Positions 39,147-42,925 of a DNA stretch of 64,000 nt are shown piece after piece (the stretch's first letter is position 1; each line of letters opens with the position of its first letter). The translations under genes and the position numbers were made by a program. This DNA is from Pelagibius marinus (GTDB lineage: Bacteria; Pseudomonadota; Alphaproteobacteria; Kiloniellales; Kiloniellaceae): contig NZ_JACSDK010000001.1 in the NCBI RefSeq assembly GCF_014925385.1, forward strand, positions 806,001 through 870,000. Reading direction: 5' to 3'. Under the pieces are notes generated by a model that searched no databases, was not told the origin of the DNA, and saw nothing but the letters and a program-made list of their open reading frames with translations.

Positions 39147-40895
39147 TCAGGCCGTCCCCTCACCATCCGGGGTCGCCGGCGGCGTCGCGCTGGCGACCGG
39201 CGGCTTGCGCTTGCCGCCCTTCGCCTTGGGCGCGTCGCCGGCGTCCTCCGGCTGCGCCTGCCCGTTACCGATGCTCTGCGACAGGCGGTGCAGCATGGTG
39301 TTGGGGTTTTCCTTGGCGTTGAAGCCCAGGTCGGTCAGCAGCTCGTCCACCAGGGGTGCCTGCATGCGGTAGTTCAGCAGCGACTGCACGATGTTGTCGG
39401 GCAGGCTGCCGCCGCCGCCCAGGTTGCCGCCGGCCTGCGCGCCGTTGCCGCCGCCGTTGGTGCCGGCGATGTTCGGCATCAGGCCGGCGCCGCCGGCCAT
39501 GCCCTGGCCGAAGTCGATGACGCGGATGTCCTTGATCTTCTCGACCGCCTTCATTGAGGCCGCCATGACTTCCGGCATGACCTCGATCAGCGCCTTCTTC
39601 AGCTCCAGGGCGATGATGCGGTCGTCCAGCACGTTGCGCGCGGCGTTGATGGCCTCCTGGCCCTCGGCCTCCACCTGGTAGCGGGCGGCGTCGGCCTCGG
39701 CGGCGATCTTGGTCGCTTCCGAGTTGGCGCGCGCGGTGATCAGCGTCGCCTCGGCCTCGTCCTCGGAGGCGGCGCGCTCGGCCTCGGCGGCCACGGTCAC
39801 GCCGACCGCGTTCTTCTCCGCCTGTTCGCGGGCAGCGACGATGGCCACGGCCTTCTGGCGCTCGGCCTCGGCGACGCGGGCCACGGTCTTCACCTGTTCC
39901 TCCTCGCGCACGGCGGTGGCGCGGGCCTTGTTCGCCTCGGCGGCGGCCAGCGACTCCTCCTGCGACTTGGTGGCGACGGTGATGGCCTTGTCCTGGCGCG
40001 TCAGCTCGACGTCGCGGTCGGACTCGATCTGCTTGCGCTCGACGGCCAGCCGGGTCTGGATCGCGGCCTCCTCTTCCAGGCGCTTGGCCTCGGCTTCCTT
40101 CTGCGCCGTCTGGGCGCGGGTCTCGGCCGCGTAGTTGGCGACGTTGCGCTCGGTATTCAGGCGCGCGTAGTCCTTCTCCTGACTGATCTCATAGGCGCGC
40201 TGGTCGGCCTGCAGATTGCGCTGCTCGATGGCGATGCGCGTTTCCTGCTCGATCTCGTTGCGCTCCTTCTTCTTGTGCTGGGTGATCTCGGTCAGGCGCG
40301 TCAGGCCCTCGGCGTCGAAGGCGTTGTTGGGGTTGAAGAACTCGGACGACGTCTGGTCCAGGGTGGTCAGGGAGACCGACTCCAGCTCCAGGCCGTTCTG
40401 CTCCAGATCGCCGGAGACCGAGTTCTGGACCTTCTGCACGAAGTCGGTGCGCTTTTCATGCAGGTCGTTGAGGTTCATCTGGGCGGCGACGCCGCGCAGG
40501 GCATCGACGAACTTGGCCTCCACCAGGTCGCGCAGCTGCTCACCATCCAGGGTGCGCTCGCCCAGGGTCTGGGCGGCCAGCGCGATGGACTCGCGGTTGG
40601 GCTTCACGCGCACATAGAATTCGACGCCGATGTCGACGCGCATGCGGTCCAGGGTGATCATGGCCGCCTCGCGCTGGCGGTTCACCTCCAGGCGCAGGGT
40701 GCGCAGGTTGACCCAGGTGATGTCGTGCAGCACCGGCAGCTTAAGGGCGCCGCCGTCCTGGATGACGCGCTGTCCGCCCAGGCCGGTGCGTACGAAGGCC
40801 AGGTCCTTGGGTGCGCGGACGTAGAGCTTGGCGAAGACGATACCGATGACGATGATGACGACGGCAGCAAAGCCGCCCAGATAGATGCTTTCCAT
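39147..40895 (-). CDS. Flotillin family protein (YqiK-like)
   Basis: 582 residues. An N-terminal membrane hairpin (GGFAAVVIIVIGIVFAKLYV) leads to the SPFH domain (FVRTGLGGQRVIQDGGALKL in part, DIGVEFYVRVKPNRESI). The long flotillin coiled coil (residues 210-420) is rich in Ala-Glu repeats. The C-terminus holds a Gly/Asn-rich linker and a conserved end (NIVQSLLNYRMQAPLVDELL in part). Flotillins scaffold lipid microdomains. It is the third gene of an operon with a YqiJ-type protein and a PspA fusion. ATG 40895 follows GGGGAGAAG. Confidence 0.92.
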   Translation of the reverse strand: MESIYLGGFAAVVIIVIGIVFAKLYVRAPKDLAFVRTGLGGQRVIQDGGALKLPVLHDITWVNLRTLRLEVNRQREAAMITLDRMRVDIGVEFYVRVKPNRESIALAAQTLGERTLDGEQLRDLVEAKFVDALRGVAAQMNLNDLHEKRTDFVQKVQNSVSGDLEQNGLELESVSLTTLDQTSSEFFNPNNAFDAEGLTRLTEITQHKKKERNEIEQETRIAIEQRNLQADQRAYEISQEKDYARLNTERNVANYAAETRAQTAQKEAEAKRLEEEAAIQTRLAVERKQIESDRDVELTRQDKAITVATKSQEESLAAAEANKARATAVREEEQVKTVARVAEAERQKAVAIVAAREQAEKNAVGVTVAAEAERAASEDEAEATLITARANSEATKIAAEADAARYQVEAEGQEAINAARNVLDDRIIALELKKALIEVMPEVMAASMKAVEKIKDIRVIDFGQGMAGGAGLMPNIAGTNGGGNGAQAGGNLGGGGSLPDNIVQSLLNYRMQAPLVDELLTDLGFNAKENPNTMLHRLSQSIGNGQAQPEDAGDAPKAKGGKRKPPVASATPPATPDGEGTA

Positions 40896-40928: not shown

Positions 40929-41582
40929 TCAGTCTTTCAGGCTGTCCGGCGGCGCAATGACGTCGAAGAGCGATCTTCGGTGGCTCACCAGCAGCACCTG
41001 CTCGTCCTGTTGGAAGCGCTTGCCGCGCCGGGAGGCGCGCACGCGCACGAAATGCGTATTGCCGTGGGTGTCCGAGACCTTGGCTTTGCCCGGCGTGCGC
41101 CGGGTCACGGGCCCCAGGGTGATGACGGCGATGCGCCCGACCAGATCGTCGTTGCCGGTGGCGTAGGTTTCCTCGCGCGGCATGACGCGGGCGAGACCGC
41201 GGCTGGTCAGGCGCGTCGCCGGAATGGCCAGCGCCAGGGCCGCCGGAGCGGCCAGGACCGAAGGCAGCAGGAAGCCGAAGGTGCCGCGCATGGCCAGCTG
41301 CAGGCCGTAGCCGCCCAGGGTGAAGACCCCGAGGAAGGCCAGCAGCAGCACCAGGAAAGGCACGCGCCCGACGTTCAGCCAGCCCAGGGCCTCGCCCAGC
41401 AGCGAGCCTTCCGCCTCCGGCGCTTCGGTGTCGAAGTCCGGCAGGAAGTCGTCGATCAGGTCGGAGAGGCCGAGGCCCATGAGCAGGCTCAGCGTCTCCA
41501 CCCCGGCGATGGCCAGGGTCAGGACCATGGTCACCAGAAACGGGTCGTTCTGGTCGGCGAAGAAGAACTCGGCACCGTTCAT
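40929..41582 (-). CDS. YqiJ-type membrane protein with OB-fold C-terminus
   Basis: 217 residues from ATG 41582, which follows AAGGGAG at good spacing. Three membrane helices (FLVTMVLTLAIAGVETLSLL in part, VPFLVLLLAFLGVFTLGG, LLPSVLAAPAALALAIPA) precede a C-terminal beta barrel (DLVGRIAVITLGPVTRRTPG, HFVRVRASRRG). E. coli YqiJ is encoded next to the flotillin YqiK in the same way. The OB-fold plays the part that NfeD plays for slipins. It lies 33 bp upstream of the flotillin start, so the two are co-transcribed. Confidence 0.85.
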   Translation of the reverse strand: MNGAEFFFADQNDPFLVTMVLTLAIAGVETLSLLMGLGLSDLIDDFLPDFDTEAPEAEGSLLGEALGWLNVGRVPFLVLLLAFLGVFTLGGYGLQLAMRGTFGFLLPSVLAAPAALALAIPATRLTSRGLARVMPREETYATGNDDLVGRIAVITLGPVTRRTPGKAKVSDTHGNTHFVRVRASRRGKRFQQDEQVLLVSHRRSLFDVIAPPDSLKD

Positions 41583-41650
41583 GGCAAGCACTCCCTTGCG
41601 TTGCGGGTTGGTCCGTTGTGGTCAGGCCCGCCCAGTCGGGGGCGGCGGTT

Positions 41651-41693: not shown

Positions 41694-42866
41694 TCAGCCC
41701 TCGCCCCTGAGGCGCGCCTTGTGGCGGGCGAGGCGTTCCTGGATGGCGTTCTGGCGGTGCAGTTCAGCCAGGTCTTCCAGGTCGCGGTTGCTGATGTGGC
41801 TCTCCTCGCCTGGCAGGCCGGTGAACTTCTCGCCCAGGCGCTGGGCCGCGTCCATGGCGGCGGAGGCCTTTCCCTGCGCCTTGGTGCCGGCGCCACCGCC
41901 GCCGTCGCCGCCGGCCGGTGCGGCGGCCTTCAGGTCGCGCAGCCGGCTCTGCGCTTCGCGGCGGCTGGCCTGCAGGGCGGCCAGGGAATCGGTCAGCTTG
42001 GCGACCTCCTCGTCGGCCTCCGCCACGGTGCGCTCCAGGAGGGCGAGCTGGTTTTCGATGTCCAGCTGGCGGCCGACGCCGGCCTCGGCGAGGTCGTCCT
42101 TCTCCTCCTTCACGGCCAGGGCGATCTTCTCGCTCAGCGAGTCGTGCTCCTGCTGCAGCTCCGCCATGCGGCGTCGCGCGTTGTGCTTGGTGGCTTCATG
42201 TTTGCCGACCTCGCTGCGCACCTCCTTCACCGCGTCGTCGATGTCGCGGATCGCCTGTTCCATCATGGGAACGGAGGCGGCCTGCTCGGCCTGCTCGATG
42301 GCGTTGTGGGTCAGTCCGGCGACCAGGCGGGTGATACGGGTCAAAAGAGTTTCCGGCATGACTTGCTCCCTTCTTATGCTGTGACGGCTCAGGAGGTCTT
42401 CGGACAGTTCGGTCCGCATGATGAAGACCCAGTCCCCGTCGAGATGGCAGAGCTCTGCGCTGCCGACCAAGAACTCGCCCGCGGCATAGGCGGTGATCGT
42501 GCAAGGCACCACCACCCGCCCGGCCAGGGTGGAGAGGGACACGGCATCGACCGCCTTCATCGAAAAGAGGTGACGGTCGAAGGGCACCGGCCCCTCAGCG
42601 TCGAGATGCGGCGCGACTACCGCCTTCCGACAGAGACGGGCGATGTGCTTGAGGCACAGCACGGCCGTCTGGGCCGGCAGGTCGAAGCGATCTCGCAGGC
42701 GGCTGTAGTAGAGGCGGTGCAGGCGGACCTGGTCGGTCACCCCGGCATCGAAGACCTTCTGGCTCAGCCAGTTGGCCGCCTCGGCGTAGCGTTCCGCGTA
42801 ATCCCGCAGCTGCTTGGCCTGTTCGGCGGTCGGGTGCAGCTGCAAAATCGCTTCGGTAGAATGCAT
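41694..42866 (-). CDS. TnpB N-terminal half fused in frame to PspA/IM30 coiled coil
   Basis: 390 residues from ATG 42866, which follows GTGGAG six bases upstream. Residues ~6-85 match the N-terminal helical region of IS200/IS605 TnpB (LHPTAEQAKQLRDYAERY, then RLHRLYYSRLRDRF and LPAQTAVLCLKHIA). Residues ~93-157 match the beta region that precedes the TnpB nuclease (GPVPFDRHLFSMKAVDAVSL, then GDWVFIMRTEL). The RuvC domain with its DLG motif is absent. From Met170 (ATG 42359) a full PspA homologue begins (PETLLTRITRLVAGLTHNAI, long coiled coil). AAGGGAGCAAGTC gives that ATG its own ribosome binding site. No stop or frameshift separates the halves, and GC-rich third positions continue throughout. 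The PspA-YqiJ-flotillin order is known; the TnpB part is not something I know. The products may be 390 or 221 residues. Confidence 0.8.
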   Translation of the reverse strand: MHSTEAILQLHPTAEQAKQLRDYAERYAEAANWLSQKVFDAGVTDQVRLHRLYYSRLRDRFDLPAQTAVLCLKHIARLCRKAVVAPHLDAEGPVPFDRHLFSMKAVDAVSLSTLAGRVVVPCTITAYAAGEFLVGSAELCHLDGDWVFIMRTELSEDLLSRHSIRREQVMPETLLTRITRLVAGLTHNAIEQAEQAASVPMMEQAIRDIDDAVKEVRSEVGKHEATKHNARRRMAELQQEHDSLSEKIALAVKEEKDDLAEAGVGRQLDIENQLALLERTVAEADEEVAKLTDSLAALQASRREAQSRLRDLKAAAPAGGDGGGGAGTKAQGKASAAMDAAQRLGEKFTGLPGEESHISNRDLEDLAELHRQNAIQERLARHKARLRGEG

Positions 42867-42888
42867 CACTTACTCCACGCTTCATGGT

Positions 42889-42925
42889 TATATAAGGGCA
42901 TAATTTGTCCTTTCGTCAAGGGACA
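42889..42925 (-). promoter_or_regulatory. Promoter and dyad of the PspA-YqiJ-flotillin operon
   Basis: On the minus strand TTGACG (42919-42914) lies inside a dyad TGTCC-N10-GGACA (42906-42925). An AT-rich -10-like block TTATATAA lies 18-19 bp downstream, about 25 bp before the first ATG. A repressor or activator bound to the dyad would cover the -35. No sigma-54 (PspF-type) promoter is apparent. Confidence 0.45.

Follow-up and report, generated by a model that had tools for sequence, protein, structure and literature searches.

A predicted TnpB REC lobe without RuvC, joined in frame to PspA at the head of a flotillin operon

Why should one half of a transposon-encoded nuclease be joined to an envelope-stress protein? 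The question is raised by a stretch of 64,000 nucleotides of the Pelagibius marinus genome (contig NZ_JACSDK010000001.1, positions 806,001 to 870,000), hereafter called the window, whose minus strand contains an open frame that begins with a stretch resembling the N-terminal half of TnpB and continues without a stop into PspA. A sequence-only reading of the window had claimed that about 165 residues follow TnpB and halt right before the RuvC nuclease, that a complete PspA comes next in the same frame, and that this gene stands at the head of a flotillin operon. These claims have held up: the first 168 residues are TnpB-type; the profile match ends at TnpB column 164, and the RuvC G-DLG motif starts at about column 169, just past the aligned region; Pfam PspA_IM30 covers residues 175-320 at E 4.2e-11, better than its cut-off; and the fusion gene, YqiJ and flotillin follow one another consecutively on the minus strand.

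Judged by profile and model comparisons, the head is almost certainly the REC lobe of TnpB, that is, an OB-fold WED domain with inserted REC helices. Taken as a single sequence, its first 168 residues matched the transposase N-terminal domain model TIGR01765 of NCBIfam at E 1.4e-4, below the curated cut-off, and no TnpB match was obtained in Pfam, PHROGs or a PDB sequence search. When 11 fusion heads were aligned with six TnpBs by hhalign, the probability was 99.6 and the E value 4.7e-24, covering TnpB columns 7-164. The head is 34% identical to one viral TnpB across 156 columns (BLASTP), and a translated search of plasmids matched TnpBs at E values down to 7e-11. The AlphaFold2 model of the window's head (pLDDT 92.1, pTM 0.85), whose input alignment consisted of 41 viral TnpB N-lobes that may bias it towards TnpB, has the order one strand, three helices, then the other strands. 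Foldseek found nine matches in the PDB at E <=0.001, each of them TnpB or Cas12, and all 50 rows that VIA-align listed for the model belong to TnpB, Fanzor, TranC or Cas12 (C2c1 among them); the comparison with 8ex9 (ISDra2 TnpB, RuvC unresolved) gave Z 13.2 and a root-mean-square deviation of 2.7 for 144 residues. The sequence-only reading had stated that it would fall if no profile or structural match to TnpB existed; both kinds of match were found. In ISDra2 TnpB, the WED domain comprises residues 1-12 and 117-176, the REC domain residues 13-116, and RuvC begins at 185 (PMC10097598). From these domain limits and the head match it follows that one TnpB lobe is retained in the fusion and the other is missing, the break falling at the domain border. 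The RuvC catalytic acids and the zinc finger are absent from the fusion, in which the frame runs from the lobe into PspA, and nothing points to a guide RNA at the locus, no search for a guide RNA or for insertion sequence ends having been made. The parts of the gene and its operon are as follows.

41694..42866, minus strand: fusion gene, predicted TnpB REC lobe plus PspA (ATG 42866; alternative GTG 42869); open reading frame (ORF) list, library matches, profile alignment.
42360..42866, minus strand: TnpB-derived head (predicted REC lobe, no RuvC); profile, BLASTP, predicted structure.
42627..42827, minus strand: three predicted REC helices, which follow WED strand 1 as an insertion (model residues 13-79); model and ISDra2 domain limits (PMC10097598).
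42408..42587, minus strand: predicted WED OB-fold strands 2 onward (model residues 93-152); model and ISDra2 domain limits (PMC10097598).
42366..42372, minus strand: internal Shine-Dalgarno AAGGGAG, candidate for a short PspA; such a site is present in all fusion genes read.
41694..42359, minus strand: PspA/IM30 part, whose ATG at 42359-42357 probably initiates a short, plain PspA; Pfam match, Shine-Dalgarno analysis.
40929..41591, minus strand: YqiJ (YqiJ_N plus YqiJ_OB); ORF list, Pfam.
39147..40895, minus strand: flotillin / YqiK-like protein (Band_7 plus Flot); ORF list, Pfam.
42906..42925, minus strand: imperfect palindrome TGTCCCTTGACGAAAGGACA, candidate operator; genome search with TGTCCYTTGANNAAAGGACA.
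42889..42919, minus strand: promoter-like TTGACG (42919-42914) and TATATA (42894-42889), spacing 19; inferred by eye.

The ORF listing places the frame at 42869..41694 (391 residues) with GTG as its first codon; the in-frame ATG at 42866 lies one codon inside and coincides with the end coordinate given by the sequence-only reading, which named no strand; the stop is at 41694. An out-of-frame ATG at 42885 (window 42595-42885, minus strand), 19 bases ahead of the long start and near the predicted transcription start, could lessen translation of the long form. At third codon positions, the head has a GC content of 0.83 and the PspA part one of 0.90. The same genome carries a second, separate PspA gene elsewhere and has no match to OrfB_IS605 (PF01385). 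An assembly artefact is unlikely, because full-length copies with 83-84% identity are present in three congeners.

The fusion has spread well beyond this genus. A survey of 98 relatives turned up 7 genomes with the full fusion, one of 385 genomes across the class turned up 6, and one of 398 across the phylum 9; these sets overlap, and pooled they give 17 genomes of eight families. The fusion is also present on 11 named plasmid records (Agrobacterium five, Shinella three, Rhizobium two, Bosea one), where annotation leaves the head invisible: ten copies are labelled 'PspA/IM30 family protein' and one 'hypothetical protein'. This is the occurrence in several genera in which the sequence-only reading had sought support. 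We read 22 fusion genes, 17 from the genomes and five from plasmids, and in the five plasmid neighbourhoods the fusion, an OB-fold (YqiJ-like) gene and flotillin are always consecutive. YqiJ_OB occurs in 25 of the 385 class genomes, and the PspA upstream of it is fused in six, plain in ten (one of them broken over two frames) and absent within 1.5 kb in nine. A frameshift or an assembly error has divided one plain PspA of a flotillin operon (L057 261-991) between two overlapping frames. Four of seven congeners are without the fusion, and the same four are also without YqiJ; gain and loss seem to affect the operon as a whole. Profile A2 matched 12 of the 398 phylum genomes, which are the nine fusions and three others that we rejected as fusions: a full TnpB (G447), a stand-alone lobe (G646) and a chance match inside an apparent xanthine dehydrogenase (G531). 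When viral contigs were searched with the fusion heads, 12 stretches matched a pattern, and none encodes a relative.

A separate lobe gene beside PspA, which had been named as an alternative form of support, was not found. The plain-PspA loci read (six in genomes with YqiJ, two in named metagenome-assembled genomes) carry an unlike, uncharacterised gene of 138-174 residues, directly upstream of PspA in all eight (L012 1100-1513, L013 992-1513, L014, L015 1013-1531, L016 989-1507, L017, L003 4466-4981 and L004 4490-5005). It overlaps PspA by 4-8 bases, except for a gap of 16 in L003. By eye, its N-terminus resembles a ribbon-helix-helix motif, but Pfam gave nothing above cut-off; PDB sequence searches returned no significant match, its predicted structure is poor (pLDDT 50.3), and a relation to the lobe is undetectable by hhalign (probability 0.3). 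In the window, the slot before PspA is filled by the TnpB lobe; we do not claim that the lobe replaced a DNA-binding protein.

What, then, could the head do? Our favoured account, which as a whole we advance tentatively, is that of a domesticated lobe on PspA, with two products and an autoregulating head. Sequence, predicted structure and trees show that a TnpB was deprived of its RuvC half and that the remaining REC lobe came, most likely in one event, to form the N-terminal head of the PspA of the YqiJ-flotillin operon. The upstream start would yield a long head-PspA and the internal Shine-Dalgarno an ordinary PspA. PspA has a free N-terminal amphipathic helix, as the short form would, and this form would be the membrane effector, the long form being a minor, regulatory or tethering subunit. 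For the PspA part we assume membrane binding and ESCRT-III-like polymers, as in the PspA/IM30 family. Oligomerised via PspA, the head would read a palindromic operator in its own promoter, and it would let go once membrane stress draws PspA to the envelope, which is the weakest step. That the head reads operator DNA is a possibility to which we give somewhat less than even weight. In ISDra2 TnpB, the DNA duplex of the transposon-associated motif (TAM) is held by the WED and REC domains (PMC10097598). It is rather doubtful, on present evidence, that this TAM-reading lobe, having shed both RuvC and its RNA guide, now recognises specific DNA sequences as a protein alone and is switched by an ESCRT-III-like polymer of the membrane-stress response, with reader and effector coming from one gene.

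The promoter region provides the evidence for an operator. In the window and three congeners, the palindrome TGTCCCTT-GACG-AAAGGACA surrounds a -35-like element; nine copies have AAAGCAC / GTGCTTT arms at a constant distance to the long start, and others have AAAACACC/GGTGTTTT (L170) or AAAGTA/TACTTT (L054), so that the arms covary between clades. Of the 22 fusion genes, 12 are preceded by a perfect palindrome of at least 7 bp, compared with 11 of 278 other ORFs from these sequences. The window element (TGTCCYTTGANNAAAGGACA, at most three mismatches) occurs at a single place in the 5.4 Mb genome. G001, G002 and G006 carry the site ahead of the fusion with 0-1 mismatches and a further 1-4 sites with 2-3; in G023 and G030, which have an element shorter by one base, one and two other sites were found. 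The -35/-10 regular expression had no match in 7 of the 22 fusion genes, six of which have a palindrome or near-palindrome, the seventh, L055, having a weak one. The palindromes suggest a dedicated regulator of the operon. The five annotated plasmid loci share no regulator gene in their incomplete tables (a LysR in one, a GlxA-type in another), which makes the operon's own soluble product the simplest candidate.

Several observations weigh against an operator read by the head. The palindrome could be bound by another protein; the copies in the window and three congeners are imperfect, and that of L055 is weak. The single occurrence of the window element is near background, as 0-6 sites per genome were also counted in backward-read controls and in two fusion-free congeners (G003 and G004, with 3 and 1 sites). 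An RNA hairpin in place of a DNA operator is possible, the palindromes of L166 and L167 holding one pair that would be G-U as RNA; this reading is weakened because many of the palindromes lie on or between promoter-like elements and would not be transcribed. The head itself has changed in the same unfavourable direction. R69, present in 60 of 62 TnpBs (71 rows minus near-copies), is L in all 16 heads; F87, found in 62 of 62, is gone from the heads; and the basic residue 73 (59 of 62) has become D or H. Mean net charge is -0.2 in the heads (n=16) versus +6.9 in the TnpBs (n=62); the rows are related, which denies independence to the P value of this comparison, and the fusion rows L044 and L056 held about 20-25 untrimmed upstream residues. 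This drop does not simply follow from RuvC loss, since another RuvC-less lobe family keeps +6 to +10. Core positions were kept: L9, P11, Y53, R57, L62, D96, S109, T112, G115, R116, Y126 and L138. Because positive charge and TnpB-invariant residues were lost, guide-RNA binding is unlikely, and the changes speak for a new role, as far as sequence can tell. The sequence-only reading had left nucleic-acid or protein binding as the remaining role; the first of these is weakened by the same losses, a DNA operator staying a possible form of it.

A different palindrome, ACATTTGTA...TACAAATGT, is present in three plain operons of one genus (L015-L017), adjoining a TTGACA-like element about 75-105 bases ahead of the upstream gene; it is perfect in L016 and imperfect in L015 and L017.

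The same pattern of changes, with core residues kept but charge and TnpB-invariant residues lost, would be expected if the head were a protein-docking module, in which nothing but the fold of TnpB survives and which, having no nucleic-acid role, links PspA to a partner such as flotillin or YqiJ, a proposal that we rate as possible but short of an even chance. It is favoured by the co-occurrence of YqiJ in all six fusion genomes of the class survey and all seven among the 98 relatives, by the coupling of a second RuvC-less lobe family to a secretion transporter (see below), and by one published group of PspA-flotillin operons that has a protein-binding CesT/Tir partner (PMC11237479). Docking leaves the operon's palindrome unexplained.

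The two-product part of the favoured account is on firmer ground, and we think it quite probable from sequence that the gene makes both a long head-PspA and a plain PspA from an internal start. The plain form is probably also made because the buried start keeps a Shine-Dalgarno in 22 of 22 genes, with anti-Shine-Dalgarno energies of -6.9 to -11.3; in L044 and L165, the second of two nearby Met codons was taken as the PspA start. Translation of a single long protein, the internal site being a by-product of the charged linker, is an unlikely alternative that draws on synonymous shuffling of 16 genes (combined P 0.27), which did not support codon-level selection on the site and so counts against two products. 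These shuffles are non-significant because lysine and glutamate codons spell a Shine-Dalgarno anyway, and the two-product case therefore rests on the recurrence of the site. The linker residues vary by clade (KE, RE, EGE, MEE or EEE) but the nucleotides of the site are kept, and only 4 of 109 other in-frame ATGs reach -6.9, neither of which is expected of a by-product. The long form of the rhizobial copies may be leaderless: by eye, 6-7 bases separate a -10-like hexamer from the long start that follows it.

Less probable still is a head that binds RNA and tethers a transcript or small RNA to membrane PspA. It could be argued from a short basic stretch that, by eye, many copies retain past the final REC helix, and from the contacts of the ISDra2 WED domain with omega RNA stem 4 and, with RuvC, the pseudoknot; however, the net charge of the head is lost, and much of the omega-RNA contact in ISDra2 comes from RuvC, which the fusion does not have (PMC10097598).

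The history of the gene points to a single event followed by constraint. In a tree of 16 fusion heads and 62 viral TnpBs, which carried a long-branch warning and yields a single origin if the root lies outside the fusions, the heads fall on one side of a branch with support 100/98. Fifteen distinct fused PspAs separate from 17 plain ones (96/94), and rooting with 17 general PspAs leaves the fused clade on its own branch (91/73); of the 22 fusion genes, both trees include 16, all but the last six to be found. One fusion event is most likely. The fusion is under purifying selection, as judged from ratios of nonsynonymous to synonymous substitution (dN/dS, NG86) of 0.08-0.22 for the head and 0.05-0.19 for PspA in ten pairs, which share sequences and of which several are saturated in dS (up to 2.05). 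Purifying selection had been named as support by the sequence-only reading, and the opposite outcome, a fusion confined to this genome and decaying neutrally, did not occur. A neutral relic of a transposon insertion is extremely improbable: its absence from four congeners and the deep pair window-L009 (dN/dS 0.51 in both halves) would suit it, but those congeners also lack YqiJ, the frame is open in all 22 copies, the ten pairs show low dN/dS, and heads just 24-28% identical to that of the window remain alignable.

A second family of lobes was observed elsewhere. Stand-alone RuvC-less lobes of about 200 residues are present in 7 of 100 genomes (that of the query included) of another proteobacterial family (L189-L195, each from 1501 to about 2130 in the orientation of the match), the six others being 51-61% identical to the query; two further matches were partial and weak. 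They lie directly upstream of an ABC-transporter-like gene, six overlapping it and one two bases apart (transporter start codon at -14 to +2 bases relative to the lobe's stop), and the one transporter scanned is PrtD-type (type I secretion-like). Most end with an IPEYxxV-like tail, and they retain positive charge. They form their own clade beside a full TnpB (100/99), separate from the PspA fusions, in a tree with a long-branch warning and an unsettled bootstrap. From their sequences, these lobes are a second, independent domestication. A Thermobacillus composti plasmid (L047 2995-3525) also encodes a stand-alone TnpB REC-lobe-like protein, which overlaps the next gene, encoding an S-layer homology protein.

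To our knowledge, the known TnpB domestications (Cas12, Fanzor, TldR) retain the RuvC fold and a guide RNA. In the fusion, selection has retained just the non-RuvC half, now attached to a membrane-stress protein, implying that the REC lobe is useful by itself. The fusion makes testable what such a lobe does when it has neither guide nor nuclease, how this PspA is regulated, and whether two isoforms mix in PspA polymers. If the DNA-reader reading is true, RuvC-less TnpB lobes would be a recurrent block of bacterial membrane machines, such as PspA and PrtD-type secretion. New here are the kept internal Shine-Dalgarno and a lobe whose core is kept but whose charge is lost.

According to a 2024 survey of the phage-shock-protein system, more than 98% of PspA homologs vary little in architecture; the survey names NlpC/P60 and PspAA fusions, and the word 'transposase' does not occur in its main text (PMC11237479). 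Our literature search by title or abstract returned no report of a TnpB-PspA fusion or link; two co-mentions of TnpB and 'pspa' were rejected as precedents, 'pspa' being a promoter or plasmid name in the passages concerned.

Compared with the TnpB REC lobe of IS200/IS605 elements, the head has in common the predicted fold, the strand-helix order and about 12 conserved residues, but it has neither RuvC nor zinc finger, has lost its charge and is located in a host operon. PspA of the Escherichia coli pspFABC system is both regulator and membrane effector, regulating through PspF; the fusion would resemble it in this doubling of roles, with a head domain and a palindromic promoter proposed where E. 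coli has PspF. Like TldR (PMC13418256), the fusion puts TnpB to host use after nuclease loss and beside non-transposon genes; TldRs, however, are full-length TnpBs with an inactivated RuvC that keep guide-RNA and DNA binding, whereas RuvC is absent from the fusion and the lobe is joined to PspA, and the fusion is not a TldR. The band-7 operons with a CesT/Tir-PspA dyad likewise bring PspA, YqiJ and flotillin together and place a partner beside PspA (PMC11237479), the difference being that the partner in the fusion is a predicted TnpB lobe joined in frame.
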